From assembly GCA_945887835.1 (NCBI GenBank), contig CAMCZQ010000012.1, forward strand, positions 1 through 35,133: a stretch of 35,133 nt of DNA, read 5' to 3'. Shown here piece after piece: positions 1-22,556 of this stretch; positions within the stretch are counted from its first letter, which is position 1; every line of letters begins with the position of its first letter. The notes under the pieces are model-generated. The model was given only the letters and a program-made list of their open reading frames with translations. It was not told where the DNA came from and searched no databases. This stretch comes from Bordetella parapertussis (GTDB lineage: Bacteria; Pseudomonadota; Gammaproteobacteria; Burkholderiales; Burkholderiaceae_B). The position numbers and the translations under genes are program-made.

Positions 1-696
1 GTCTACGGCGCCACGCACCATAATCGCGCCCGACATCAGACTTGCCACTTGCAGAGCGCTTGAGCCATGATATTGCGGGTGGTAATAGAACGGCCCAGCA
101 GGATGATCTTTGGGTATGCGATAGACGTGCTGGCGAGAACCTCCGTTTGGCAATACGCCACCGTAATTAGGATCCACCACATAGTCACCATACTCAGGCG
201 GGCTGACATCGCCATAAATCCCCGGAAACACATGCAGTCCATGTACGTGCAAATTCGTCGTATTCGGTCTGATGTAATTCGTCGGATCGCGAAACGCTTG
301 CACTGGGGGGTTCTCGGGCAGCTGATTCAGCAACCGAATCCTCAATTCGTCACCGCCTCGAACAACTAAGGTTGGACCTGAGTAGCCTGCCCGTTGAGAG
401 TCATAACCGTAGGCGCGTAGCGACGCAGGATGGCGCACGGTCGGCTTTGAGCCAGATAGCCGGGTATCAAAATATGAAATCGTGAGGGTGACCTCTAACA
501 AACCATTCTTTGCTTCGAGTAAAGGCGGTTGCACGAAGGTCTGCATCGGCAATGCATGACGATCACTCTCGTATTGATCACAGGCCGTTAAACCAAGCGG
601 CACCGCCATGCCCGAGGCAATGCTCACGCCATAGCGTAAAAAATCACGCCTAGCGTTTGCTTGTTCGCTATGATTGGTCATATTCGCTTTAGCCAT
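1..696 (-). CDS. Multicopper oxidase, N-terminal part (cut by window edge)
   Basis: The 232 visible residues have a twin-arginine leader (ARRDFLRYG near residue 15, then a short hydrophobic stretch ending LTAC) and a plastocyanin-like Cu-oxidase_3 domain. A type 2/3 copper motif LHVHGLH lies near residue 150. The second motif reads YYHPQYHG, where the family normally has HxH, so one predicted copper ligand is Gln. This suggests an exported copper enzyme acting in the periplasm; the C-terminal copper motifs lie outside the window. The ATG at 694-696 overlaps the stop of the upstream RCC1 gene by 8 bases, suggesting translational coupling. No Shine-Dalgarno is visible, and ATG 679-681 (MTNHSEQ) is an alternative start. 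A LTAC lipobox-like end to the leader could instead mean a Tat lipoprotein. Family is secure; substrate is unknown. Confidence 0.88.
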   Translation of the reverse strand, partial: MAKANMTNHSEQANARRDFLRYGVSIASGMAVPLGLTACDQYESDRHALPMQTFVQPPLLEAKNGLLEVTLTISYFDTRLSGSKPTVRHPASLRAYGYDSQRAGYSGPTLVVRGGDELRIRLLNQLPENPPVQAFRDPTNYIRPNTTNLHVHGLHVFPGIYGDVSPPEYGDYVVDPNYGGVLPNGGSRQHVYRIPKDHPAGPFYYHPQYHGSSALQVASLMSGAIMVRGAVD

Positions 697-1756
697 TTTT
701 CCAAAAGGGAGAAGGCATCAATTGTTGCCGGGCTGCACGACCAATCTGCCCCGTCTCATTGCTGCCCCAGCCGTACAGCGCGTGCCTGCTAATTGCCAGA
801 GCATGCATCTCACCGGCAGCGATCGCCTGCACTTGGGTAAGGCCCAACACTTTTGTAGGAGTGCTTCGAGGTTGTGTGTCATTTGCACCGAGCTGGCCAT
901 AACCGTTCCACCCCCAAGCGTATACGCTACCAGATTTTGCTAGTGCCATTGAAAAATGCGTGCCAGCTGCGATTGCTGTTATTTGTTCTGGCATCTGAAT
1001 CAAAGCTGGTTGACTGCCATAGCGCTTATGCTGATGGCCCAACTGCCCATATTGATTACTACCCCAGCCATACAGCTCGCCCTGACTGCTGAGGGCTAAA
1101 ACGTGAGTCGAGCCAACGGCGATACTATTAATCGAACCCGTGACACGAACAAGCTCTGGAGTGGGCGCATTTCTTAAATGCCCTAGCCCTAATTGCCCTG
1201 CAGAATTACTGCCAAAAGAAAGAACTTCTCCCTGCCGTGACAACGCGATCATGAAGTTATCGCCCAATGCGATCAGCTGCAAGGCTGGTAAACCACGGAC
1301 CACACCAGGCGATGCATTCATTTGCGCGGTTACACGGCCCAGTGCCTGATCAACGTTGAGACCCCAAGTGTGAAGACTGCCCGCTTGACCAATTGCCGCA
1401 AAGATTGACTGCCCCGCGGCAACGGACTCTGGTCCAATGATGCCTTCAATGGGAGTGGGTATTTCAGAAGTTGCCTGATCACCACCGACCCCAATTGGAT
1501 TCCAACCCCAAACGAGTAGCTCTTTTTGGGTCGACACCCCAAGACTAACGGCATAGCCTGCCGACATACGACTCAATCTTAATGACGAGCCTACATATAC
1601 TGGCTGACTGTCTAAACTAGGCGCACTACAAATATCGACATTACCAGGTTTGTAGCGCCCGCTGCCTGCACCGCCCCAACCCAGCACTTCGCCAGATTCT
1701 AAAAGCGCCAAAGTCTGGCTCTTGCCAGCACTTACCTCACGAATGATAAAGGACAC
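689..1756 (-). CDS. RCC1-repeat (beta-propeller) protein
   Basis: The 355-residue protein is built almost wholly of RCC1/ATS1-type repeats. Seven units can be counted, each with an 'aGxxHtlAL...GevyxWGsNxxGQLG' pattern (clear examples begin IAVGSTHVLAL, IAAGTHFSMAL and IAAGEMHALAI). That number suits a closed seven-bladed propeller. Such proteins usually mediate binding; no enzymatic motif is seen. The start is GTG at 1754-1756, because an in-frame stop lies only about 11 codons upstream and the first blade begins immediately, so there is no signal peptide although both neighbours are exported. It follows the YHYH gene by 13 bp and overlaps the multicopper oxidase gene by 8 bp, so the three look like one operon. 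Function is unknown. Confidence 0.85.
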   Translation of the reverse strand: MSFIIREVSAGKSQTLALLESGEVLGWGGAGSGRYKPGNVDICSAPSLDSQPVYVGSSLRLSRMSAGYAVSLGVSTQKELLVWGWNPIGVGGDQATSEIPTPIEGIIGPESVAAGQSIFAAIGQAGSLHTWGLNVDQALGRVTAQMNASPGVVRGLPALQLIALGDNFMIALSRQGEVLSFGSNSAGQLGLGHLRNAPTPELVRVTGSINSIAVGSTHVLALSSQGELYGWGSNQYGQLGHQHKRYGSQPALIQMPEQITAIAAGTHFSMALAKSGSVYAWGWNGYGQLGANDTQPRSTPTKVLGLTQVQAIAAGEMHALAISRHALYGWGSNETGQIGRAARQQLMPSPFWKNG

Positions 1757-1769
1757 GTTTAGATCTAGC

Positions 1770-2891
1770 CTAGCGAATCCCCCCCTTTAGGGTTCCAATC
1801 AAGCCCGGAAGAACAATGTTCCCCGCAAGGTCTGGAAGTTGCGAATAAGGGATCCCCTCTTGCATCGCAGCAGAGCCAAGTGCCGCGTTATAGTCAGGCG
1901 TCCCTCTAAAACATCCTACAGAAAACGGATATTGATTGTTCAGATGGTAATGGTAGATATTTTGCATCGAACCGTTCCATTCAACCGGGTGTATGTGGCC
2001 ATGGCACTCGTCTAACTCGGCATTCGTCACCATCTTTCCATCCACGCCGCGCGGGCCAAAAATCCCGAAGCCATCCAGTGCATAACCAAATAATGGTGAA
2101 TGACCCGAGGTACCTTGATTCGGAAAGCACTTCCAAGAGTAACCATGATAGTGATATTGCTGCGCATAAGGATGGCCAAAGCACTGATCATTAGGGAGTG
2201 CATTGGTCGGGCTATACCAATTACCACTAGAATCGTTCGCGAGTTCTACATGCCAAGCGGCTCCAGTCAAAGTAATGCCAATGATCAACGAGTTAATCGG
2301 ATTAAATCCCGTTATTACCGGGTTTAAGGGCAATTTGCTGGTGAGGTCGTAAGGAGAGATACCAATGGCAGCTGCTGAAGAATAGTTACTACCCGTTCGC
2401 GGATCGGTACCACCTGGCAAAGCCGCATAGTAGGCGTACGCCGCTGTGCCTGGCTGCACAGGATAATTTCCCATTGGCGTACTTGGCAAGCCATTCCCTT
2501 TTAAGTAGCGAAATTTGTCATCGGTTGTCATTGAGAAAACGCTGCCCGCCGGGTCGATCTGCGACGCCGTGACCGCACCCTCTACGAATGGTGTTTGGGC
2601 GATCGTAATGATGTTAGTGGTGGTGTTGGTCCAACTCGTAGCAGCCAAGGTCAGCTTATTCGCAACCTGTGCTGCTGCAGTAAAGAGTGGTGAAATACAG
2701 AGCCCATTGGGGGCACAGGCTTGAGTGCTTGTGCCATTGGCCGCGGTCACCAGTATGGTTGGCGTTCCGGAATCACTTCCACTGCTCGAGGTAGAGGATT
2801 TAGACGTACTTCCATCCCCGCAAGCCACCAGCAAAGTCACAAGACCGACCACTCCAAGGACAGAACTGAGATTTTTACTGAAGCCAAGCAT
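1770..2891 (-). CDS. YHYH-domain lipoprotein
   Basis: This is a 373-residue protein. The start chosen is the ATG at 2889-2891, preceded by AGGAG at good spacing and giving a clean lipoprotein leader (MLGFSKNLSS, then VGLVTLLVAC with lipidated Cys24). A longer reading to 2933 would bury the leader. A Ser/Thr/Gly-rich linker follows. The C-terminal two thirds contain the repeated histidine motifs QYHYHGYSWKCF and IYHYHLNNQYP and paired cysteines typical of the YHYH domain (PF14240). The domain is of uncharacterised function; the His-rich motifs suggest metal binding, which is inference. It is first in an apparent operon with the RCC1 protein and multicopper oxidase, so a periplasmic or outer-membrane copper-linked role is plausible. 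Confidence 0.85.
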   Translation of the reverse strand: MLGFSKNLSSVLGVVGLVTLLVACGDGSTSKSSTSSSGSDSGTPTILVTAANGTSTQACAPNGLCISPLFTAAAQVANKLTLAATSWTNTTTNIITIAQTPFVEGAVTASQIDPAGSVFSMTTDDKFRYLKGNGLPSTPMGNYPVQPGTAAYAYYAALPGGTDPRTGSNYSSAAAIGISPYDLTSKLPLNPVITGFNPINSLIIGITLTGAAWHVELANDSSGNWYSPTNALPNDQCFGHPYAQQYHYHGYSWKCFPNQGTSGHSPLFGYALDGFGIFGPRGVDGKMVTNAELDECHGHIHPVEWNGSMQNIYHYHLNNQYPFSVGCFRGTPDYNAALGSAAMQEGIPYSQLPDLAGNIVLPGLIGTLKGGIR

Positions 2892-2967
2892 GGTCGCTCC
2901 TGTTTCTGCGTTTTTAGACAACTGTCTGCGCATTTGTTCTTAAAAAATAATGCACGAAATGTCATAA

Positions 2968-2996
2968 TGACAAACAGTATACGAATTCATTTGTCA
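2968..2996. promoter_or_regulatory. Inverted repeat, possible TetR operator
   Basis: A perfect 7-bp inverted repeat, TGACAAA-N15-TTTGTCA, lies between the YHYH operon (minus) and the first TetR gene (plus). The string CAAACAGT inside it (2971-2978) recurs at 3040-3047 next to another TTTGTCA. Its location between a regulator and a divergent operon suggests an operator. No protein binding can be shown from sequence. Confidence 0.4.
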
Positions 2997-3139: not shown

Positions 3140-3820
3140 ATGCTTAAAATACAAGACCATCGAATTAGAGTTGCAGCCTCAAGACGCGAAGAGATGCAAA
3201 ACTCTCTTATGTTTAGCGCGCTTGCTCTGGCGTCTGATAAGTCTATTCACGAAATTGATGTTGATGACATCATTCAACATGCGGAGGTATCGCGGGGCAG
3301 TTTCTACAAGTACTTTCCCTCGGTTCAGGCATTAATTCCAGCCTTAGCAGACCAACTGGCGCAAGAACTCACTGCAGAGATCGATGCGATCACCCACCAG
3401 ATTCCCAGCACGTCTGCCAGATTGGTCATTACCGCGAAGTTAGCCATGCGCCGCTTAGTGAGGGTTAAGGTTTTAGGAAACTTTCTCATCCAGCTGCCGT
3501 GGCCGAGTCAAAACCCTGAAGTCAACATATTTAAAAACATCAGCTCAGATATTGAACTTGGCATTAAAGAGGGGCTATTCACCAAAATGCCTGCCTCAAT
3601 AGGATGCAACCTTTTTATCGGCAGCCTCATCGGTGGTATTCACGCCATGCTTGGTAATTCACACTCTGCCAGTTATGAGAATAAAGTGCTATACCAAGCG
3701 CTCATTGGCTTGGGTCTGGCTTCAACAACAGCAGATGAGCTATTAAAAGCCCCCGTGCCTTCTTTACCGAAACTGACGGAAACTGGCTTGCTGGGTAAGA
3801 TCGCCAAGATGCAGTCTTGA
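3140..3820 (+). CDS. TetR/AcrR-family transcriptional regulator (copy 1)
   Basis: The protein has 226 residues. The N-terminal third holds a TetR-type helix-turn-helix (residues about 32-62, IHEIDVDDIIQHAEVSRGSF followed by YKYFPSVQAL, matching the family's 'vdDIa..AgVsrgtfYryFpsk..L'). The rest is a helical ligand-binding domain. It ends in a tail LPKLTETGLLGKIAK that the next gene also has (LPDLPKKGLVGKILK). It is divergent from the YHYH operon, with dyads in the 248-bp gap, so it may repress that operon or itself. No clear Shine-Dalgarno precedes the ATG. The effector is unknown. Confidence 0.85.
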   Translation: MLKIQDHRIRVAASRREEMQNSLMFSALALASDKSIHEIDVDDIIQHAEVSRGSFYKYFPSVQALIPALADQLAQELTAEIDAITHQIPSTSARLVITAKLAMRRLVRVKVLGNFLIQLPWPSQNPEVNIFKNISSDIELGIKEGLFTKMPASIGCNLFIGSLIGGIHAMLGNSHSASYENKVLYQALIGLGLASTTADELLKAPVPSLPKLTETGLLGKIAKMQS

Positions 3821-3996: not shown

Positions 3997-4677
3997 ATGT
4001 CTAAGATCATTCACCACCTCTTTCGCGATGATAAAACCGAGCACCAACAGGTGCACGCGCGTCTCGTGTCAAGTAGCCCCGAATTAATCTCGACGACATC
4101 CATCAACGAAATTAAAGTCGAAGATATCGCTACGCAAGCCGAAGTGTCTAAAGCCGCCTTCTATAAATGCTTTCGAAGCGTAGAAGATTTATTGAATACC
4201 AGCGCTAAACAAGCGGGGGCTGAGTTATTAATCCCCATCCACTCGGTTGGCTTGACGATTTCTGACATTGCCTTACGAACGGCGACTAAAACCAGAATTG
4301 CAATACGGATGATGACTGGCATACCATTGTTGGGTAGGTTAATGTTGAAAACTGAGTGGCCGTTTGGCGACGCTCGACACAAAGGCTATCAAGACATTCA
4401 ACAGGATATTGCCGCAGGCATTGCACAAGGCTGCTTTACGGATACGCCTCTTGAGATTGGTGCCAACCTTGTGGTCGCCACCTTACGAATTGCGGTTCAA
4501 GACATACTCAATTCGACACGTACAGAGGACTATGAGGCTCAGGTCATTTACACCCTGCTCTTAAGCTTAGGGGTCGACCCCAAAAAAGCGGACGAAATTT
4601 CTAAAATACCGTTTGATCAATTACCGGATCTACCAAAGAAAGGCTTGGTCGGTAAAATTTTAAAGTTGGTTGCTTAA
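3997..4677 (+). CDS. TetR/AcrR-family transcriptional regulator (copy 2)
   Basis: This is 226 residues, exactly the length of copy 1 upstream and alignable end to end. It shares the helix-turn-helix (IKVEDIATQAEVSKAAFYKC then FRSVEDLL), an internal pattern 'DI..GI..G.FT..P..IG.NL', and the C-terminal 'LP.L...GL.GKI.K' tail. The pair therefore looks like an old tandem duplication. The recognition helix differs (SKAAFYKCF versus SRGSFYKYF), so the two probably bind different sites. AGGG sits directly against the ATG, too close for a normal ribosome-binding site. No effector can be assigned. Confidence 0.83.
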   Translation: MSKIIHHLFRDDKTEHQQVHARLVSSSPELISTTSINEIKVEDIATQAEVSKAAFYKCFRSVEDLLNTSAKQAGAELLIPIHSVGLTISDIALRTATKTRIAIRMMTGIPLLGRLMLKTEWPFGDARHKGYQDIQQDIAAGIAQGCFTDTPLEIGANLVVATLRIAVQDILNSTRTEDYEAQVIYTLLLSLGVDPKKADEISKIPFDQLPDLPKKGLVGKILKLVA

Positions 4678-5447: not shown

Positions 5448-6977
5448 TTAGGCCCATTCAGGCTCCTTCCAAACCGCATCCTCATCAATCGGCCACACTG
5501 GCCTAGGCAAAGCTTTAAAGCTTAAGCGTTTTAAATTAGGCGTGGTTAACCCTGGACTATCGACATCCATGATTTGATCATCTAAAAAGAACTCGTCAAA
5601 GCCCGCGCGATAGTGGCCACGACTTTTGACGATGAGGCATTGGATTTTTGAAATATCAATTCCATGCATCTCAAGCATCACAGGTTCGGCTAACTGGCGG
5701 CGTAACGTGCCAACGACAACTTGCAGACCCGAATCAACTAACTCAAGCAATGCACTGGCCCCGAGTGAAAACTTGCGATCTTTCATAATGCCGCGTCGGC
5801 CCGTTTGAAAGCCGTCGCGCAAACAAATAATTTTTGCACGCGCAGTAAAACGTTTTGAATGTTCGAGCTCTGTTGCGTTAAAGACTGCATCGAACACAGC
5901 GCCCTCACCCAGCGCATGTGCTTGTGCCGCCAACTCAGGGGCAATAAACACACCCAGCACCACACCTTGGATACGTGCCTCGTGAAACGCCTGTAGTAGC
6001 CACGAAGTGCTGCCCCGCCCACCGCCACCGGGGTTATCGGCCACATCGGCAAACAACATCGGCGCCAACCCAGCGCGAGCAAGCTTGACTGCCTGTTCAA
6101 CTTCGATCGTATCTGCGACGTAGCGCGCACGATCAGCCCACGCCGCACGGGCCACGGTTAAAGCCGCCGCGCGAGCGGCAGCCAAATCTCCACGCGAGGT
6201 CACCGTAATCGTCATGCCGCACTTAGGCACATCCGCAAACACAAAGCCACCCGCCACCGAGACGTTTGCAACAGGTCCTTCAGAGGGCTTTTGCATCAGC
6301 GAATAAGCAAGCTTCAACAAATCGGCATAGGGGCCGCGTGACGAAAGCAAGGTCACGGAAGGCGGTGTAATCGGCATGCGAATAAAAGCTTTTACCGTTT
6401 TCATGCCTGCAAACATTTCGTTTAACAGGTCGGCGGCTTCAGCACCACGCTCGCGTTGATCGACGTGCGGATTGGTGCGATATGCCACCAAGGCATCCAG
6501 CGCATCAACGGTCTGGGGTGAAACATTGCAATGCAAATCGTGTGTGGCAATCACCGGGATGTCGGGGCCCACAAGTCGGCGAATCAGCGTCATCATGACG
6601 CCTTCGGTATCGTCTTCGTGGTCGGCAGTCGAGGCGCCATGGTTACAAACATACACCGCATCGACAGGTAAAGCAGCGCGCAACGACGATTCAGCTTTTT
6701 GTATGAACTCTTTCCAGACCTCGTCACTGGTTGGCCCGCCTGGTGGCGCACCAATCACGATTAAGGGTACGGGCGCCCAGTCGCCATACGAATCCATTTT
6801 TTCGTAAAACCCACGAATCTCGCCCGGCAAGTGACTAGCCTGGCGCGCTAAGTCGGTAATACGTGCGCCCTCTTCCCAACAGCTTTTTTCAAAATCTTCT
6901 CGCACTGACAAAGGCGCGAAACGATTCGATTCAAGCACAAAGCCAACGATAGCAACTCGGGGGTTCAGTTTAGACAT
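5448..6977 (-). CDS. M81-family metallopeptidase (MlrC-like)
   Basis: The 509-residue length fits the M81/MlrC family (N-terminal DUF1485-type domain plus MlrC C-terminal domain). Visible motifs are CNHGAS (111-116), the zinc-site HDLHCN (146-151), YRTNPHVDQRERG (166-178) and DNPGGGGRG near residue 314. Characterised members include the microcystinase MlrC, which cleaves linearised toxin peptides; most homologues have unknown substrates. It is the last gene of the ABC-transporter operon, 53 bp after the binding protein, so cleavage of the imported peptide in the cytoplasm is the natural inference. No signal peptide is seen. Confidence 0.88.
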   Translation of the reverse strand: MSKLNPRVAIVGFVLESNRFAPLSVREDFEKSCWEEGARITDLARQASHLPGEIRGFYEKMDSYGDWAPVPLIVIGAPPGGPTSDEVWKEFIQKAESSLRAALPVDAVYVCNHGASTADHEDDTEGVMMTLIRRLVGPDIPVIATHDLHCNVSPQTVDALDALVAYRTNPHVDQRERGAEAADLLNEMFAGMKTVKAFIRMPITPPSVTLLSSRGPYADLLKLAYSLMQKPSEGPVANVSVAGGFVFADVPKCGMTITVTSRGDLAAARAAALTVARAAWADRARYVADTIEVEQAVKLARAGLAPMLFADVADNPGGGGRGSTSWLLQAFHEARIQGVVLGVFIAPELAAQAHALGEGAVFDAVFNATELEHSKRFTARAKIICLRDGFQTGRRGIMKDRKFSLGASALLELVDSGLQVVVGTLRRQLAEPVMLEMHGIDISKIQCLIVKSRGHYRAGFDEFFLDDQIMDVDSPGLTTPNLKRLSFKALPRPVWPIDEDAVWKEPEWA

Positions 6978-7030
6978 GAGCGAAGTCTCAATGAATAGTT
7001 TTTTTGATGATGACCAGCTTAAACAAAGGC

Positions 7031-8623
7031 TTAAGCCCTGCGAAAGGTATAGAACAACGGCATTTCAGGTTGAAAGTCACGCCACTGTTTACGTAGTGCC
7101 GTGACACCATAGACTGCCCCTAGTGGTATGTAGGGTACATCTTCAAAGACTTGTAATTGAATCTCACGCGCGATCTTTTTTTGTACTTCTAAGTCTGCAG
7201 CCTCAAACCAAGCCAGACGCAACTGTTCAAGGCGTTCGCTTGTCGGCCAGCCAAACCAAGCCTGCTTCCCATTGCCACGCAAAGCGAGGTGGCCAGCAGG
7301 ATCTAAGTTGTTGGGGCCCGTGATGGCCGTAAACGCCACATTCCAACCACCTTTCAAAGGCGGTTCTTGGCTATTGCGCCGCTGCACCGCGGTGCCCCAA
7401 TCCATTGCAAGTAGCTCAACCTTAATGCCGAGTCGCTTAAATAAATCGGCCGTCACCAGCGCAGCCGCGTGGTGAGCCGGAAAATCAACCGGATCTAAGA
7501 GCACCACCGTCTCGCCTTTGTAGCCGGCTTCTTTGATCATTGCACGCGCGCGATTCAGATCACGCTTGCCTTTTAGTTTTTCCATTCCCGCATCGCTATC
7601 TAAGGGGGAACCGGGCACGAAGACACCACAACGATCGTTCCAGTATTCAGGAAAGTCGGCTCCGTTGACTGCGGTCATATACTCCGACTGATCAATCACT
7701 GACAAAATGGCCTGACGCATCAGCGGACTATTAAAGGGAGCGTGCAAGTGATTAAAACGCAAGATAGAAATCGAAGGCAGAGTACGTTTTAACAGCGTAA
7801 TCGACGGATCCTTGCGTAGCACGGGTAAAAAATCGTTGTCGATGGTTTCGATGCCATCCACTTCGTTTGTTTGCAAGGCGGCAATGGCCGTCGCGCGATC
7901 CGGCACGATCACCCATTTGACCTGATCGACATGCACGATTTTGGGGCCTGCCGTAAACGACGGAGCAAAGCTATCTGTGCGTGGCACGTAGTCTTGAAAT
8001 TTGTCATAAATGATGTGCGAGCCCGACACCCATTGATCCGCCATAAATTTTAACGGACCGCTACCCACCATCTCTTTAACGGGCACGCTCTCGGGCCCTG
8101 CCGCCAAACGCTCGGGCATGATTGCTGCCATGCTTCCTTGTTGACGCGCAAGCGCCTGCAAGAGCAGCGGAAAAGGTTTAAGCAACTTGAACTGTATCGT
8201 TTTGTCATCAAGCACAGTAAGGGCTTCGGTTGCTTGCATCAGCGAGGCTCCCATCAGATCGCGCTTGGCCCAACGCACTAAACTGGCGCGAACATCGGCG
8301 GCTCGCACCAACGAGCCATCATGAAATTTCAAACCGCCGCGCAGGGTGATCTTCCAGAGTAACCCGTCATTTTCCACCGTATGTCCCGCCGCCATCTGCG
8401 GCGAGGGCCGATATTGCGCATCTAAGCCGAAAAGCGTGTCAAACACCAATTGCGCGTGAATATTGGTAATAAACGCTGTTGTAAAAAGAGGGTCAAGCAA
8501 GGTGAGATCTGCATGCGGCACCCAGCGAAAAGTGGTTTTTGGCGCTTGCGCGCCTACCCAGGAAGGGGCACCCGCCAGCGCGATGGCCGCGCTCGATCCT
8601 TGCAAAAAATGTCGGCGTTTCAT
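7031..8623 (-). CDS. ABC transporter peptide-binding protein (SBP_bac_5)
   Basis: The 530-residue protein begins with a twin-arginine leader ([20 protein letters not shown], cleavage likely after VGAQA). It continues as a family-5 extracellular solute-binding protein, with features such as DPLFTTAFITNIHAQLVFDT, a 'LKFHDGSLVRAADVRASLVR' stretch and EMVGSGPLKF. It should deliver oligopeptides or similar solutes to the two permeases encoded upstream. Its ATG shares one base with the stop of the ATPase gene (TAATG) and is preceded by GGAGGG, so translation is coupled. Export by Tat rather than Sec is an inference from the RR motif. Confidence 0.92.
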   Translation of the reverse strand: MKRRHFLQGSSAAIALAGAPSWVGAQAPKTTFRWVPHADLTLLDPLFTTAFITNIHAQLVFDTLFGLDAQYRPSPQMAAGHTVENDGLLWKITLRGGLKFHDGSLVRAADVRASLVRWAKRDLMGASLMQATEALTVLDDKTIQFKLLKPFPLLLQALARQQGSMAAIMPERLAAGPESVPVKEMVGSGPLKFMADQWVSGSHIIYDKFQDYVPRTDSFAPSFTAGPKIVHVDQVKWVIVPDRATAIAALQTNEVDGIETIDNDFLPVLRKDPSITLLKRTLPSISILRFNHLHAPFNSPLMRQAILSVIDQSEYMTAVNGADFPEYWNDRCGVFVPGSPLDSDAGMEKLKGKRDLNRARAMIKEAGYKGETVVLLDPVDFPAHHAAALVTADLFKRLGIKVELLAMDWGTAVQRRNSQEPPLKGGWNVAFTAITGPNNLDPAGHLALRGNGKQAWFGWPTSERLEQLRLAWFEAADLEVQKKIAREIQLQVFEDVPYIPLGAVYGVTALRKQWRDFQPEMPLFYTFRRA

Positions 8624-10491
8624 TAATACTGCCCTCCTACGTGATGTTGTGCAACAAAATGACCTTCACCGACTTGCACCAATGGCAACACCAGCGGTTC
8701 ATCGCCAAGCTTTCTTGCGGGGCTCGGGATCTCAGAGACCTCAAGACTAGTCGTGCGTCGAACCGTCGGATCAGCAACCGGCACCGCAGACATCAATTTG
8801 CGGGTGTAAGGGTGCTGGGGATTTTCAAAGATCGCCTGACGTGGCCCAATTTCAACGATCTGACCGAGATACATCACCGCGACGCGATGACTGACGCGCT
8901 CAACGATCGCCATATCGTGAGAAATAAACAAATAAGACACCCCTAAATCTTTCTGTAGATCCATCAGCAAATTGATAATGTGGGCGCGAATCGATACGTC
9001 AAGCGCCGATACCGCTTCATCTGCAATCAATACTCGCGGCTTGACGGACAAGGCACGAGCAATGCAAATCCGCTGACGCTGTCCTCCTGAAAACTCATGC
9101 GGCCAGCGTTTTGCCATCGAAGCTTCTAGGCCGACGCGTTCCATGAGTTCGGCCACCAGACGCTCTGCTTCAAGCCCTTGCGCAAGCCCCTGTATCAATA
9201 ACGGCTCTTTAATACAGTCGCCTACTCGCATGCGCGGATTCAGCGAAGCAAAGGGGTCTTGAAACACGAATTGCAAATTACGCCGCAAGGCCCGCAAAGA
9301 GTGCGTATTCGTGGTGTCGACGCGCGCACCATCAAATTCGATCGTACCCCGAGTGATTTTTGCCAAGCCCACAAGCGAGCGGCCCGTCGTTGTCTTGCCG
9401 CACCCCGATTCACCCACCAACGAAAGTGTTTCGCCTTCGTGCAGCTCAAAGCTGACTTGTTCGACGGCATGAATACGTTTTTTTATGAAGCCAAACACAC
9501 CGCTACGCACATCGAAGCGTGTCACCAGATTTTTTACGCTCAATACAACCTGAGCCGTCTGTGTTGACTGTTCGGCAGCAGATGGCTGCGCTGCTGATAC
9601 CGACTGTGCCTGACCGTTGAGCACCAAGTTAAAGCGAGCGGGTTGCGCTGTCCCGCGCATCGCTCCTAATTTTGGCACTGCAGCCAAAAGTGTTTGGGTA
9701 TAGGGGTGCTGAGGACTGGCGAACAACGGAATCACCGCGTTGTCTTCCACGACCTCGCCGTGACGCATCACCAACACGCGATTGGCGACCTCTGCTACGA
9801 CGCCCATGTCGTGGGTGATAAAGATCACCCCCATATCCATCTCTTTTTGCAATTCACGGATGAGTTGCAAAATCTGCGCCTGAATCGTGACATCAAGCGC
9901 TGTTGTTGGTTCGTCGGCAATTAATAAGGCGGGCTTGCAGGATAGAGCCATCGCAATCATGACACGTTGCCGCATGCCTCCAGATAATTCATGGGGATAA
10001 CGACCCAGAATCGCGGCCGAGTCCGAAATACGCACCTGGTCAAGAATTCTTTTTGCCGCGGCAACGGCTTGCTGATGGTTCAAATCCTGATGCAACTGAA
10101 TCGCCTCGACGATCTGCGAGCCAACGGTGAAGACAGGATTGAGCGAGGTCATGGGTTCTTGAAAAATCATGCCTAAATCGGCACCACGCATCCTGCGCAT
10201 CTGCTCTTCAGAGTTTGCGCGCAAGTCAACCTGTGATCCATCGGCGCGATGAAACAGCAACTCGCCCTGATGGATGTGCCCGCCTCCGAATTCGACTAGC
10301 CGCATAATTGCCAGTGACGTGACGGATTTACCAGAACCCGATTCGCCCACAATCGCTAGGGTCTCGCCTCGGTCAACGTGTAGATTCAAGCCCTTCACCG
10401 CATGCACCGCTGTCGCACCCTGACCAAACGATACAGACAAATTACGGATATCAAGCACCCGACGTTCAGAGGTCAGTTCTGAGCTTGTCAT
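8623..10491 (-). CDS. Fused double ATP-binding protein of a Dpp/Opp-type ABC transporter
   Basis: The 622 residues hold two complete nucleotide-binding domains, equivalent to DppD plus DppF and resembling GsiA in layout. Domain 1 has Walker A GESGSGKS (49-56), signature LSGGMRQR (169-176) and Walker [13 protein letters not shown] (189-200). Domain 2 has GESGCGKT (360-367), FSGGQRQR (467-474) and [11 protein letters not shown] (488-498). Each domain is followed by the HPYT element common to oligopeptide/dipeptide ATPases. A low-complexity linker (about 290-315) joins them. The start codon lies 3 bp after the stop of the permease gene and the stop overlaps the binding-protein ATG. Confidence 0.94.
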
Positions 10492-10494
10492 GAC

Positions 10495-11328
10495 TTAAAT
10501 CCTTTTGGCCATACGAGGATCGATCGCATCACGCAAACCATCGCCCAACATATTGATCGCTAAAATCGTGATCGATAAAAACAGAGCCGGAAACGCGATC
10601 AGATGCGGCTTAATCTGCCACAGGGCGCGCCCCTCGGCCATAATGTTTCCCCAAGAGGGAATCGAAGGCGGCACCCCTGCGCCAATAAAAGACAAACTCG
10701 CCTCAGCCAAAATCGCCAGGCCACAGATGTAGGTCGTTTGCACGGTCAAGGCGGCGATTGTATTGGGAAAAATATGCTTATAAACAATGCGCAAACGACT
10801 TGCCCCCGCGGCAACAGCCGCTTCGACGTACGGCTGCTCACGCAGCGATAGGGTCAGGCTTCGCACTAAGCGTACGACCCGCGGGACTTCAGCAATCGTG
10901 ACCGCTAAAATCACGTTTTCCAAAGAGGCACGCGACAGAGCGATCAGTGCAATCGCCAGCAAAATGGTCGGAATCGACATGAAGCCATCCATGATGCGCA
11001 TCACCACGGCATCAATCCATTTGATAAAACCTGCCGCCAACCCAATCACCGTGCCGATGACCGCTGAAAGCAAGGCCACTGAAAACCCCACTGTTAACGA
11101 GACTCTTGCCCCATACACCACGCGTGAATAAACATCGCGCCCCAGCAAATCCGTTCCAAACCAAAATTTTTCACTCGGTACCCGTGTGCGATGAATCGGC
11201 GAGAGTGCGGTTGGATCGATTGTGCCGAGCCAGGGCGCCAAAAGCGCCATCAGAAACAATAACAACAACAAAAAACCACCCACAACAATGGTGGGATGTC
11301 GTCTGAACGTTTGAGCGAAGCCGAGCAT
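10495..11328 (-). CDS. ABC transporter permease, DppC/OppC type
   Basis: This is a 277-residue inner-membrane permease with about six membrane spans. An N-terminal OppC_N-like segment precedes the BPD_transp_1 domain. Typical family sequence is visible: FGTDLLGRDVYSRVVYGARV, the EAA-loop region EAAVAAGASRLRIVYKHIFP, and the C-terminal LGDGLRDAIDPRM. The start is set at the ATG at 11326-11328, which overlaps the stop of the upstream permease (TGATG); a TTG one codon earlier is possible but less likely. It pairs with the DppB-like protein to form the channel. Confidence 0.93.
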   Translation of the reverse strand: MLGFAQTFRRHPTIVVGGFLLLLLFLMALLAPWLGTIDPTALSPIHRTRVPSEKFWFGTDLLGRDVYSRVVYGARVSLTVGFSVALLSAVIGTVIGLAAGFIKWIDAVVMRIMDGFMSIPTILLAIALIALSRASLENVILAVTIAEVPRVVRLVRSLTLSLREQPYVEAAVAAGASRLRIVYKHIFPNTIAALTVQTTYICGLAILAEASLSFIGAGVPPSIPSWGNIMAEGRALWQIKPHLIAFPALFLSITILAINMLGDGLRDAIDPRMAKRI

Positions 11329-12269
11329 CAATATTTAATCCTTGGATCAAACACACGATATAAAAGATCGACTGTCAGGTTCACTAGAACGTACAGCAGG
11401 CTAAACATCAGGATCACGCCCTGAATAATCGGATAGTCGCGTCTTAAAATCGCGTCAACAGTCAGGCGTCCGACACCCGGGATCGAGAAAACCGTTTCGG
11501 TCACGACGGCGCCACTAATTAACAGTGCCACTCCGCTGCCCACCACCGTGACGATCGGCACACCAACATTTTTTAAGGCATGACGAAACAAAATGCCCTT
11601 GTTACTCACCCCTTTTGAGCGCGCGGTGCGTATGTAGTCTTGGGATAAGGTTTCGAGTAAGGTCGCACGACTAATGCGAGTGATGAGCGCAACGTATACG
11701 CTGCCCAATGCACAGGTGGGTAGTATCAACGTTCGAATCGAGGGCCAAAAGCCTTGCGAAAAAGGAACATAGCCTTGCACAGGCAGCCAGCGCAGCTCTA
11801 AGCCAAAACCGTAGGCCAGCAAATAGCCGACCACAAACGAGGGGATTGAGAAACTCAGCACCGCCAGCATCATGATGCTGCGGTCATACAATTTATTATG
11901 TCGCCAGGCCGCTAAGGCGCCAAGTGGCACGGCAAGCGATACCGATAAAATCAGCGTCATGATCATCAGCGTAAAGGTCGGCGCCAGTCTTTGCCCGATC
12001 ATTTGGCTGACCTGCAAGCCCGTAAAAAGCGACACCCCTAAGTCGCCATGCAAGACTTTCCAAAGCCAGTCGCCAAAACGTATCAAAAAGGGCTGATCTA
12101 AACCCAAGGTCATACGGATTCGGGCAATATCCGCGGGGGTCGCGTCTTCACCCGCCAATAAGACAGCGGGGTCGCCTGGCGTCAGGCTTAACAGGCCAAA
12201 AACGAATAGCGCCACAAAGAGCATGACCGGCAGCGTCAAAAGCACGCGTCGGAGGGTGTAAGCCAGCAT
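11328..12269 (-). CDS. ABC transporter permease, DppB/OppB type
   Basis: The 313-residue permease is first in the operon. It begins MLAYTLRRVLLTLPVMLFVA and has the family landmarks LTPGDPA, the loop QDYIRTARSKGVSNKGILFR (EAA-type motif contacting the ATPase), and the ending 'LTVDLLYRVFDPRIKY'. Six membrane spans are expected. AAGG lies 5-7 bases upstream of the ATG. The whole operon reads permease B, permease C, fused ATPase, binding protein, M81 peptidase with overlaps or very short gaps, so it is probably transcribed as one unit from the 127-bp region shared with the LON-domain gene. Confidence 0.93.
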   Translation of the reverse strand: MLAYTLRRVLLTLPVMLFVALFVFGLLSLTPGDPAVLLAGEDATPADIARIRMTLGLDQPFLIRFGDWLWKVLHGDLGVSLFTGLQVSQMIGQRLAPTFTLMIMTLILSVSLAVPLGALAAWRHNKLYDRSIMMLAVLSFSIPSFVVGYLLAYGFGLELRWLPVQGYVPFSQGFWPSIRTLILPTCALGSVYVALITRISRATLLETLSQDYIRTARSKGVSNKGILFRHALKNVGVPIVTVVGSGVALLISGAVVTETVFSIPGVGRLTVDAILRRDYPIIQGVILMFSLLYVLVNLTVDLLYRVFDPRIKY

Positions 12270-19276: not shown

Positions 19277-20299
19277 ATGACGACTCAAACTCCTAGCTAC
19301 GCGCCCCTCGGTCTGAGCGGCTTGCGTGTCCCTCGCCTTTGGTTAGGCACCATGATGTTTGGTGACCAAACTGACGAAAACGTTGCGCGGGATATCGTAG
19401 CGGCCACCCGAGACGCCGGCTATAACGCCATCGATACGGCAGACAGCTACGTTGGCGGAGAATCCGAACGCATGGTCGGGCGTCTGATCGCACAAGACCG
19501 TGCTCGCTGGATCTTGGCCACGAAGGTTGCCAACCCAATCGGTCAAGAGCCCAATGACCGAGGCACCTCACGACGCTGGCTGCTTACCGAGGTCGACAAT
19601 AGCCTCAAACGCCTAGCCACCGACTGGATCGATGTTTACTACATGCACCGCGATGATGAAGTCACGCCAATGGAAGAAACACTGTCCACCTTTGCGCGAC
19701 TCATTGAGCAAGGAAAAATTCGCTACTACGGTGTGTCTAATTTCAGATCCTGGCGCATCGCCAAGATGGTAGAGATGGCAAAAAAAATGGGGATCCCGCA
19801 GCCGATTGTCTGCCAGCCCCCCTATAGCGCCGTCACCCGCCTGATCGAGACCGAAGTTATTCCCTGCTGCGAACACTATGGCCTGGGTGTGATTGCCTAC
19901 AGCCCGCTCGCGCGCGGCGTTTTAACCGGAAAATATCAACCCGATGTCGCCCCCGATGCCACGAGTCGGGCCGGGCGCGGCGATCGTCGCTTACATCAAA
20001 CAGAGTTTAGACAAGAATCTTTTTCGGTTGCGAATGCTTTAAAAGAACACGCCCAACAACGCGGCTTAAGCCCCACTCAGTTTGCGATTGCCTGGGCGTT
20101 GAACAACAAACTGATCAGTGGTGTCATTGGCGGGCCCAGAACGCTCGAGCAATGGCACGATTATCTGGCAGCAATGTCGGTTGCCATCACGGCTCAGGAC
20201 GAAACCGTCGTCGACGCGCTTGTGCCGCCAGGCTATGCCTCAACCCACGGCTTCACAGACCCGCAATATCCGATCGTTGGACGCCGCCCGCGCGCTTAA
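19277..20299 (+). CDS. Aldo/keto reductase
   Basis: The 340-residue (beta/alpha)8 oxidoreductase has the AKR catalytic tetrad: Asp53 and Tyr58 in AIDTADSYVGGESE, Lys83 in ILATKVA, and His124 in DVYYMHRDD. The NADP-binding C-terminal loop (GVIGGPRTLEQ) is present. It resembles the voltage-gated-channel-beta/YajO-like AKR branch that reduces small aldehydes. The position downstream of PrpD-2 suggests it may act on a product of that pathway, which is inference. The start codon directly follows a 15-bp repeat array. Confidence 0.9.
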   Translation: MTTQTPSYAPLGLSGLRVPRLWLGTMMFGDQTDENVARDIVAATRDAGYNAIDTADSYVGGESERMVGRLIAQDRARWILATKVANPIGQEPNDRGTSRRWLLTEVDNSLKRLATDWIDVYYMHRDDEVTPMEETLSTFARLIEQGKIRYYGVSNFRSWRIAKMVEMAKKMGIPQPIVCQPPYSAVTRLIETEVIPCCEHYGLGVIAYSPLARGVLTGKYQPDVAPDATSRAGRGDRRLHQTEFRQESFSVANALKEHAQQRGLSPTQFAIAWALNNKLISGVIGGPRTLEQWHDYLAAMSVAITAQDETVVDALVPPGYASTHGFTDPQYPIVGRRPRA

Positions 20300-20384
20300 C
20301 CAAATCGCAATCCTACCTGAAGCAACACCTAGTTTGATAGGCGATAATAGCGGCTCAGCCCTTACCAGTGAAGCCGGTCTAGTC

Positions 20385-22556
20385 ATGAACAATCGCGATA
20401 TGGTCATCCAGAGCATCGTCTATCTGCGCGGACCGAATTTATGGACATACTGCTCAGCGATCGAGGCGGTGGTTGATATTGGCGACCTTGAAGATTGCCC
20501 GTCGGACGTCGTACCCGGGCTTTATGAAAGGCTAGTAGCCTGGCTGCCAAGTTTAATTGAGCACCGCTGTAGCCCCGGCGTGCGTGGCGGCTTTTTGCAG
20601 CGCCTGAAAACCGGCACCTGGCCTTGTCACATCCTTGAGCATGTCACTCTGGCGCTGCAAGATTTGGCGGGCGTGCCCGGGCATGGCTTTGGCCGCGCAC
20701 GCGAGACTGAAAAACGAGGCGTCTACAAGGTGGTTGTCAGTGGCTGGCAAGAAGAGGTCACACGCGCCGCGCTTTACGCCGGCCGAGATCTGGTGATGGC
20801 GGCGATCGAAGACCGGCCCTACGACTTAGAGGGCGTGCTTGAGCACCTCAGAGACCTGACACAAGACCTTTGTTTAGGCCCAAGCACTGCCTCGATGGTG
20901 CTCGCAGCCGAAGACCGCGCCATCCCAGCCGTACGCTTAAATGACGGCAATTTAGTTCAGTTTGGCTACGGTAACCAACAGCGCCGCATCTGGACAGCAG
21001 AAACCGATCAAACTAGCGCCATCGCCGAAACGATTTCGCGTGACAAAGACTTAACAAAGTCAATTCTTGAGGCTTGCGGGGTCCCTATTCCGCAGGGGCG
21101 AGCCGTCGCCAATGCGCAAGACGCCTGGCAAGCCGCACAAGAGCTTGGCTTGCCTGTCGTGGTCAAACCCGTTGATGGGAATCACGGCCGCGGGGTATTT
21201 ATTAACCTCAACACACAACCAGAAATCGAAGCTGCCTACGCGGTTGCGGTTGACGAGGGTTCGGGCGTCTTGGTTGAGCGGTTTATTCGCGGCAATGAAC
21301 ACAGATTGCTGGTCGTCGGCGGCAAACTTGCGGCGGCGGCAAAAGGGCAAGCGGCGCTTGTCACCGGAGACGGCAAGCACACGATTGATGAACTCATTGC
21401 ACTGCAAATCAATTCGGATCCTCGTCGTGGGCGCGGCGAAGATCAACCCCTGAACCCAGTACGCATTGACTCGGCCGCAAGACTCGAGCTCAAACGGCAA
21501 GGCTTTGATTCTCAGAGCGTTGCGCCCGCTGGGTGCGAAGTCTTAATTCAGCGCAACGGCAATGTTGCCTTTGACTGCACCGATGACGTGCACCCCGAAG
21601 TCGCCGCACTCGCCGCGCTCGCCGCCAAAGCCGTAGGTCTCGATGTCGCCGGTATCGATTTAGTCACTGAAGACATCTCCAAGCCGCTCTCAGCGACAGG
21701 CGGTGCGATTGTTGAAGTCAATGCGGGCCCTGGGCTTTTGATGCATTTAAAACCGGCTGAAGGTCAGCCGCGCGAAGTGGGCAAAGCCATTATCGACTAC
21801 ATGTTTCCGCCAGAGAACTATCAGGTGTTTCCGTTGATTGGCGTGACGGGTGCCTCCGGCACCACGCTGGTCACGCGTTTACTGTTTCATTTTTTGAAGC
21901 AAAGCGGCCTTCACGTTGGCTTATCTAACAGCGAAGGTGTGCGTGTCAACGACCGCGCTTTGCCCGTCAACGTGTCTTCGTCTTGGTCAAATACGCAGCG
22001 TTTGCTTTTAAACTGCCAACTTGAGGCGGCCGTTGTTGAAAACGACGGCATGCAACTACTGACCCAAGGTCTGGACTACAACAGATGCCTCGTGGGCATT
22101 GTCACCGACATCACCTTTAGCGAAGCTTTCAAAGATCCCACCGTTGAACATCACAACTTTAAGACTGCGCAAGACTTGATTAAGGTCTACCGCACTCAAA
22201 TTGACGTGGTCTACACAACCGGCACGGGGGTACTGAACGCCGACGACCCTATCGTTGCGGCGTTCGCCGAATATTGCGATGGCTCGCTGACATACTTTAG
22301 CCAACACCCTGACTCGGCGCTGATCCAGACACATCTCGCTGGCGGGCACCGTGCAGTATTGCTGGTTGCAGAGCAAATTATTCTGGCAGAGGGCTTGGTT
22401 CGCACCCCACTTTGTCAGGTCTCGACACTGCCCCTGCTCAGCGCCAACCCAGCGTCTTTTCAAGAAAACATCGTGCCGGTTTTGGCTGCAGTCGCGGCGG
22501 CCTGGGCGTTAAATCTGCCTTTAGATTTGCTGCACAACGGTCTACAAACTTACTGA
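20385..22556 (+). CDS. cphA: Cyanophycin synthetase-like protein with degenerate Mur domain
   Basis: Starting at ATG 20385 the protein has 723 residues, shorter than the roughly 870-900 of CphA1. An earlier in-frame start at 20118 would lie inside the reductase gene and is rejected. Residues 10-160 form the CphA N-domain (LRGPNLWTY near 14, PGVRGGFLQRLKTGTWPCHI at 64-83). Residues 215-475 form a complete ATP-grasp domain (KPVDGNHGRGV at 261-271, EVNAGPG at 444-450). The Mur-like half begins at 484, but its P-loop reads GVTGASGTT with no Lys. The Glu/ARGG segment is lost (VVENDGMQLL), and the protein stops where CphA1 continues into the Mur C-terminal domain. It may resemble CphA2-type enzymes, which polymerise beta-Asp-Arg dipeptides. 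Confidence 0.85.
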   Translation: MNNRDMVIQSIVYLRGPNLWTYCSAIEAVVDIGDLEDCPSDVVPGLYERLVAWLPSLIEHRCSPGVRGGFLQRLKTGTWPCHILEHVTLALQDLAGVPGHGFGRARETEKRGVYKVVVSGWQEEVTRAALYAGRDLVMAAIEDRPYDLEGVLEHLRDLTQDLCLGPSTASMVLAAEDRAIPAVRLNDGNLVQFGYGNQQRRIWTAETDQTSAIAETISRDKDLTKSILEACGVPIPQGRAVANAQDAWQAAQELGLPVVVKPVDGNHGRGVFINLNTQPEIEAAYAVAVDEGSGVLVERFIRGNEHRLLVVGGKLAAAAKGQAALVTGDGKHTIDELIALQINSDPRRGRGEDQPLNPVRIDSAARLELKRQGFDSQSVAPAGCEVLIQRNGNVAFDCTDDVHPEVAALAALAAKAVGLDVAGIDLVTEDISKPLSATGGAIVEVNAGPGLLMHLKPAEGQPREVGKAIIDYMFPPENYQVFPLIGVTGASGTTLVTRLLFHFLKQSGLHVGLSNSEGVRVNDRALPVNVSSSWSNTQRLLLNCQLEAAVVENDGMQLLTQGLDYNRCLVGIVTDITFSEAFKDPTVEHHNFKTAQDLIKVYRTQIDVVYTTGTGVLNADDPIVAAFAEYCDGSLTYFSQHPDSALIQTHLAGGHRAVLLVAEQIILAEGLVRTPLCQVSTLPLLSANPASFQENIVPVLAAVAAAWALNLPLDLLHNGLQTY

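Follow-up and report, generated by a model that had tools for sequence, protein, structure and literature searches.

SufI of Escherichia coli is a metal-free substrate of the Tat pathway that has the fold of a multicopper oxidase (MCO) and for which a scaffold role has been proposed; according to the account cited here, it kept 2 of the 12 ligand residues and bound no metal (PMC2661564). In Geobacteraceae, the laccase-family oxidase OmpB is described as being secreted by the type II secretion system (T2SS) (PMC3543383). Tat-dependent export can also extend to proteins without a signal of their own, as described for PaoABC and HybOC, in which a partner that lacks a leader, and whose gene accompanies that of a Tat-signal subunit, leaves the cytoplasm by hitchhiker export, and dedicated proofreading chaperones are reported for Tat substrates in the same source (PMC4273604).

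The stretch of DNA analyzed here (35,133 nucleotides, hereafter the window) begins with three genes (the trio) that resemble each of these systems in part. Like SufI (also named FtsP), the MCO of the trio combines Tat export and an MCO fold with the loss of copper ligands, but it differs in its lipobox, its RCC1 partner, its link to a T2SS and the larger number of ligand positions kept. In a structure search with the predicted model, the closest folds were Thermus laccase (Z score of 40.6 over 417 residues) and CueO (35.0), with SufI at 34.3; unlike the laccase and CueO, the trio MCO is without type-1 and some type-3 ligands. It shares with Geobacter OmpB a tie between an MCO-family protein and a T2SS, a likeness at the level of description, but OmpB is presented as a multicopper oxidase, and no RCC1 or YHYH protein is mentioned in the portion of the account drawn on here (PMC3543383). 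The RCC1-MCO gene pair is similar to PaoABC and HybOC in that a leaderless partner gene accompanies a Tat-signal gene; those complexes, as described, carry cofactors, and co-export of RCC1 with the MCO is a proposal. The RCC1 protein belongs to the same repeat family as HERC2, UVR8 and BLIP-II (PDB sequence matches at 6e-57, 4.2e-50 and 2.7e-13, respectively). The propeller of BLIP-II takes hold of an enzyme, and we know of no MCO partner for any of the three. A search of the open literature by titles found no paper on RCC1 paired with an MCO in bacteria, and none of the titles listed dealt with the function of the YHYH domain.

The trio in Zwartia genomes

The window is one entire contig (G000:C12) of a genome in 292 contigs that belongs to a relative of Zwartia, freshwater bacteria of the Alcaligenaceae (Burkholderiales) that include the relative Zwartia hollandica LF4-65 (G005). 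The trio, encoding a YHYH-domain lipoprotein, an RCC1 propeller protein and an MCO-fold lipoprotein, is co-directional on the minus strand (Table 1). An earlier note on this DNA had described an operon-like cluster with a 13-bp gap followed by an 8-bp overlap; the coordinates agree, and the gene order is conserved in relatives. The MCO gene is truncated at the contig end, and the C-terminal half of this organism's MCO opens contig G000:C140 (L179:1-1194). As MCO query residues 4-218 matched C12 and residues 221-600 matched C140, the sole two matches in this genome at E 1e-40, the two halves probably form one gene.

Table 1. Features at the trio end of the window
Feature	Position	Strand	Basis
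MCO-fold Tat-signal lipoprotein, N-terminal half, copper sites degraded	1..696	-	PF07732; ligand table; C-terminal half elsewhere
Leaderless RCC1 propeller protein, MCO partner gene	689..1756, GTG start	-	PF00415 170.9 bits; MCO adjacency; no leader
YHYH-domain lipoprotein	1770..2933 (start 2891 likelier)	-	PF14240 52 bits; lipobox; conserved in 10 genus genomes
Palindrome TGTCATTATGACA, candidate operator, between TetR1 and YHYH	2960..2972	.	Core invariant in 7/7 aligned regions
TetR-type regulator 1 (TetR1), divergent from YHYH	3140..3820	+	PF00440 33.2 bits; adjoins YHYH in 8/8 covering genomes
TetR-type regulator 2 (TetR2), TetR1 paralogue	3997..4677	+	PF00440 27.5 bits; 34% identity to TetR1

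YHYH, RCC1 and MCO follow one another on a single contig in seven genomes of the genus (G000, G001, G005, G010, G016, G020 and G028), with a contig end cutting YHYH in G010 and G028 and the MCO in G000. In G011 the parts lie on two contigs, while the G025 contig stops after RCC1 and that of G026 starts inside the MCO. This conservation of gene order in relatives rules out chance clustering. G031 has a lone YHYH gene, which stops near residue 240, where the DNA looks by eye like the end of an insertion sequence; searches of that genome for RCC1, MCO and T2SS found none of them.

The YHYH protein bears the lipobox LLVAC, and its match to PF14240 (cut-off, 25 bits) covers only profile positions 3-112 of 193, i.e., 110 positions. 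The shorter form of the protein is favored by in-frame stops that cut off the extra N terminus in G005, G011 and G025. The gene was matched in 11 of 150 related genomes, with dN/dS values of 0.057-0.185 (13 of 15 pairs, the other two being without dS; many dS values were near or above 1). No PDB relative was found by sequence up to E 1, and an AlphaFold2 model built from 7 close sequences gave no usable fold (mean pLDDT of 27.5). In a phylum sample, PF14240 matched 21 of 349 genomes at E 1e-8, and RCC1 lay near none of the 24 matches in the 20 genomes other than the window's own (20 matches with flanks of up to 6 kb and 4 with 1.5-kb flanks only). At one locus (L243), some 5 kb separate the YHYH gene from a weak match to the MCO (24-27% identity), which was judged unrelated. 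Nor was a YHYH match found at the 16 loci outside the trio clade that carry the RCC1-MCO pair without YHYH (pair-only loci), among the best 80 of 549 RCC1 loci. As far as the genomes searched extend, YHYH accompanies the RCC1-MCO pair in Zwartia only.

The RCC1-MCO pair and the loss of copper ligands

In addition to PF00415, which it matches above the cut-off, the RCC1 protein matches PF25390 at 287.7 bits, which places it among RCC1 repeat propellers. The observation in the earlier note that it lacks a signal peptide while both neighbors carry one was borne out: in-frame room upstream of its start amounts to about 10 codons in the window, and none of the eight trio loci with a covered start has more than 13 codons ahead of it, leaving no room for a leader. 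The window MCO has a twin-arginine motif and, beyond what the earlier note described, the lipobox LTAC; the twin arginine and lipobox Cys are invariant in 21/21 full-length MCOs (alignment A2, with starts chosen by us). RCC1 homologues in pair-only loci, where a check for leaders had been suggested, likewise open within the first propeller repeat if begun at the aligned start; some GC-rich loci have longer upstream open frames, in which a leader is unlikely. A leaderless gene beside a Tat-signal partner gene is the gene arrangement of Tat hitchhiker pairs.

RCC1 was matched in 26 of 150 related genomes. A species-genome collection was also scanned with the RCC1 alignment, which gave 549 confirmed loci; the best 80 of these were examined, so that counts are lower bounds. 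An MCO gene starts at the RCC1 end in at least 22 of these 80 loci, all beta-proteobacterial; at one further locus (L072) the DNA ends just after RCC1, and the other 57 show no MCO within the DNA examined. By record title, the pairs among these best 80 loci come from Zwartia relatives, Polynucleobacter, Eoetvoesiella, Candidimonas, Pusillimonas, Parapusillimonas, Curvibacter, Simplicispira, Polaromonas, Paracidovorax, Comamonas and MAGs, with two records titled Methylopumilus (L073) and Bordetella parapertussis (L074) being contigs of G010 and G028 in the window's genus. The families are Alcaligenaceae, Comamonadaceae and Burkholderiaceae (three genera looked up). A search that started from the MCO found 16 genes of this MCO clade in 14 of 150 related genomes (E 1e-40), and RCC1 is directly upstream in 15; in the remaining case (G026) the contig end truncates the MCO gene. 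RCC1 searches at E 1e-40, a cut-off that may miss weaker pair-type genes, matched 7 of 399 genomes of the order and 6 of 274 of the class (own genome included), with no MCO in the 1.5-kb flanks, and an MCO profile at E 1e-80 matched the window's own genome alone among the 399. One pair RCC1 had no match at E 1e-40 in plasmid records. The recurring unit is therefore the pair, a leaderless RCC1 gene directly followed by a Tat-type lipoprotein MCO, which is tight but patchy in its occurrence. The earlier note had argued that recurrence of the trio in distant taxa would support a system and that confinement to close relatives would count against one; in the genomes searched the trio is so confined, whereas the RCC1-MCO pair recurs across families.

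Copper ligands were compared in an alignment of 26 rows, with ligand types assigned by the established MCO motifs. All 12 ligands are kept in 16/16 rows of pair-only MCOs. In 9/9 C-terminal halves of the trio MCOs, Asn or Ser stands in place of the type-1 Cys and Gln in place of one type-3 His, and the second type-1 His is also lost; in the N-terminal halves another type-3 His is replaced by Gln in 8/8, the window included. The trio MCO thus lacks the full ligand set of a catalytic MCO (a type-1 Cys-His2 site plus eight His at the trinuclear site), and because type-1 and type-3 ligands are lost, the label "copper oxidase" fails for this locus. Neither the ligand comparison nor the MCO trees include the Polaromonas MCO (L088), which is split over two frames.

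Despite the lost ligands, the model of the Z. hollandica trio MCO (L067 protein; mean pLDDT of 72.3, pTM of 0.76) keeps the fold, and predicted structure, Z scores and Pfam (PF07732 at 29.8 bits in the window MCO, above cut-off) agree on three cupredoxin-like domains. No FtsP family was present among its NCBIfam matches. Values of dN/dS were 0.078-0.130 for copper-dead MCOs (23 of 28 pairs, five being without dS) versus 0.057-0.191 for live ones (10 comparisons), with many dS values that approached or exceeded 1. The trio MCO remains under purifying selection, and dN/dS, open frames and the kept fold together rule out a pseudogene. Dead MCOs form one clade with support of 100/100, also after removal of 16 ligand-region columns, and this clade adjoins a Polynucleobacter-like live clade that includes a second, live pair in G020. 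The type-1 site and part of the trinuclear copper site were lost once, in one Zwartia lineage. The RCC1 tree contains the same trio clade with the same neighbor and a branch with 100/100 support has five rows without MCO together on one side, a placement that carries a long-branch warning; dN/dS of trio RCC1 genes was 0.064-0.233 (25 of 28 pairs, three being without dS; many dS values approached or exceeded 1).

The occurrence of copper-intact and copper-dead MCOs beside the same propeller partner, in one case both within a single genome (G020), offers a natural before-and-after comparison that separates the role of the partner from copper chemistry. In G020, the intact pair is followed by a SCO1/SenC gene. 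In Curvibacter lanceolatus, the pair stands in an operon-like row with a GMC oxidoreductase, a PLP decarboxylase and a phytochelatin-synthase-like protein, and other pair-only loci have unrelated neighbors. Since these contexts vary, RCC1 tracks the MCO and not a pathway, and it remains after copper loss. The simplest role common to the RCC1 proteins of live and dead pairs would be binding of the MCO. Retention of RCC1 with a copper-dead MCO makes a role in binding or export likelier than one in copper loading.

Secretion linkage and candidate roles

Downstream of the trio MCO in Z. hollandica LF4-65 are gspL, M, N, D, E and F by Pfam (gspL below cut-off), and after these lie pseudopilin-like genes, one identified by Pfam (N_methyl) and the others by eye. 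The match to gspC is weak, being present in 7/9 genomes and over cut-off in 2. Together these genes, gspC included, form a T2SS locus next to the trio. MCO, gspL and gspD occur in the identical 9 of 32 genomes of the genus (Fisher 3.6e-8, not corrected for relatedness, and weakened by common ancestry within one genus). The distance from MCO to gspL is 6 nt in G005, G016 and G026 and about 8 nt in G001, and in G011 the two overlap by 4 nt. Of the 10 genomes that have YHYH, 8 carry gspL, compared with 1 of the 22 that do not (G026, whose contig starts inside the MCO); the exceptions with YHYH are G025, in which the contig ends after RCC1, and G031, in which YHYH is interrupted.

We tentatively favor the hypothesis, to which we give somewhat less than an even chance, that the trio heads a locus with an accessory role in secretion, in which a SufI-like, non-catalytic scaffold or surface cargo is bound by RCC1 and tied to the T2SS. 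In the cytoplasm, RCC1 would attach to the folded MCO, and the two would leave together through Tat, by analogy with the hitchhiker export of PaoABC and HybOC. By analogy with SufI, the copper-free MCO may then serve as a scaffold or as surface cargo, and the MCO and the YHYH lipoprotein may reach the cell surface through the linked T2SS, for which OmpB provides a precedent, or help to organize it. The RCC1-MCO pair thus lends itself to testing whether Tat co-exports an RCC1 protein, and YHYH, a domain of unknown function, is now tied to a secretion locus. A broader but rather unlikely proposal is that Burkholderiales RCC1 propellers are dedicated partners co-exported with Tat lipoprotein oxidases, an undescribed two-protein module which in Zwartia was stripped of copper chemistry and rebuilt with the YHYH lipoprotein as a non-catalytic T2SS accessory at the cell surface.

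Counting against co-export, RCC1 could remain in the cytoplasm. An alternative hypothesis, somewhat unlikely in our judgment, is that RCC1 is a folding or Tat-proofreading chaperone specific to the MCO and is never exported, the copper-free MCO alone leaving the cytoplasm as a scaffold. To our knowledge, the RCC1 propeller is not a chaperone fold for Tat substrates, and its retention despite copper loss makes a cofactor-checking role less likely. The leaderless trio RCC1 would nevertheless suit a chaperone, as would the 5-6 Cys of Pusillimonas-type pair-only RCC1 proteins, which are unremarkable in a cytoplasmic protein, and chaperones dedicated to proofreading of Tat substrates have been described (PMC4273604).

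The tie of the trio to the T2SS, on which the accessory secretion hypothesis draws, is interrupted in G000, G010, G020 and G028, where genes, partly on the opposite strand, lie between MCO and gspL. All four have a polysaccharide-lyase-like gene in this interval, to which G000 adds a sulfatase, a sulfatase-modifying-factor-like protein and an unassigned lipoprotein, and G020 a RoxA-like cytochrome. That the site before gspL also takes such genes, and that the RCC1-MCO pair occurs elsewhere in other contexts without a T2SS nearby, would fit a link that is positional only, through a shared insertion site, with the function of pseudo-oxidase and RCC1 unrelated to secretion. We consider this improbable, given the identical distribution of MCO and T2SS across the genus and the near-zero spacing to gspL in five genomes.

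Even less probable is that the trio MCO binds copper at its remaining histidines as a store or sensor instead of an oxidase. Ligands H2, H3, H6 and H7 are kept in all covering trio rows, and H1, H5 and H8 in most; with at least five His ligand positions mostly kept, some metal binding may remain, and His and Cys are abundant in the YHYH domain. SufI, however, bound no metal with the two residues it kept, according to its description (PMC2661564). The trio MCO no longer has the type-1 Cys or two of the type-3 His, and the remaining positions, those four excepted, are each lost in at least one species (H8 in the window organism, H1 in G011 and H5 in G001). The copper-linked envelope oxidase system envisaged in the earlier note fits the pair-only relatives, with their complete ligands and, in one, the SCO1/SenC gene that follows, but as a working system in the trio it is highly improbable, as trio MCOs are without the type-1 Cys, by way of which electrons enter laccase-type oxidases.

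Divergent regulators

Two TetR genes are divergent to YHYH in all eight genomes of the genus that cover that side. TetR2 was found in the same 8 genomes as TetR1, with a contig end cutting TetR2 in G016 and G025. For the palindrome between TetR1 and YHYH, the chance expectation is 0.04 matches in the window with one mismatch allowed.

Neighbours of the oxidase and of the copper-intact pairs

In the window organism, the locus that carries the C-terminal half of the multicopper-oxidase-fold protein (MCO) continues with genes on the opposite strand, which separate the MCO from the T2SS gene gspL and encode a sulfatase, a sulfatase-modifying-factor-like protein, an unassigned lipoprotein and a polysaccharide-lyase-like product. 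A relative of this sulfatase (57% identical) is found in Eoetvoesiella, about 2.5 kb behind one RCC1-MCO pair with intact copper ligands. Genus genome G020 has a second RCC1-MCO pair, whose copper ligands are intact, and directly after it a gene for a copper chaperone of the SCO1/SenC type. The pair of Curvibacter lanceolatus is co-directional with genes for a GMC oxidoreductase, a PLP decarboxylase, a phytochelatin-synthase-like protein (PF05023) and a CitMHS transporter, and two further Comamonadaceae loci (L077 and L080) appear to have a similar row, judged by gene starts.

Coordinates of the features in the window and in the extracted loci
Location	Genome	Feature
window 5448-12269	G000	MlrC-like M81 metallopeptidase, then oligopeptide ABC transporter set
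window 20118-22556	G000	cyanophycin-synthase-like protein (PF18921)
L179:1299-7420	G000	genes between MCO and gspL
L054:2529-4631	Eoetvoesiella (G047:C13)	sulfatase relative
L047:11547-12161	G020	SCO1/SenC gene
L075:1759-12934	Curvibacter lanceolatus	pair and co-directional genes
L060:1-148	G031	YHYH gene interruption
L069:5956-7134	G020	RCC1 with insert
L073:963-2117	G010	RCC1 with insert
L074:210-1364	G028	RCC1 with insert
L062:7490-9148	G024	RCC1-like match
L063:5263-8607	G022	RCC1-like match

Variants of the YHYH and RCC1 genes

The YHYH gene of G031 is interrupted by sequence that, judged by eye, resembles the end of an insertion sequence; the remainder of the trio locus was looked for in that genome and not found. 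In three other genus genomes two of the propeller repeats of RCC1 are separated by an insert of about 25 to 30 residues with a high content of Thr, Ala and Lys. The RCC1-like matches of G024 and G022 fall within proteins of 552 to 557 aa, which by eye adjoin lysozyme-like and tail-like frames; these two loci are perhaps prophage.
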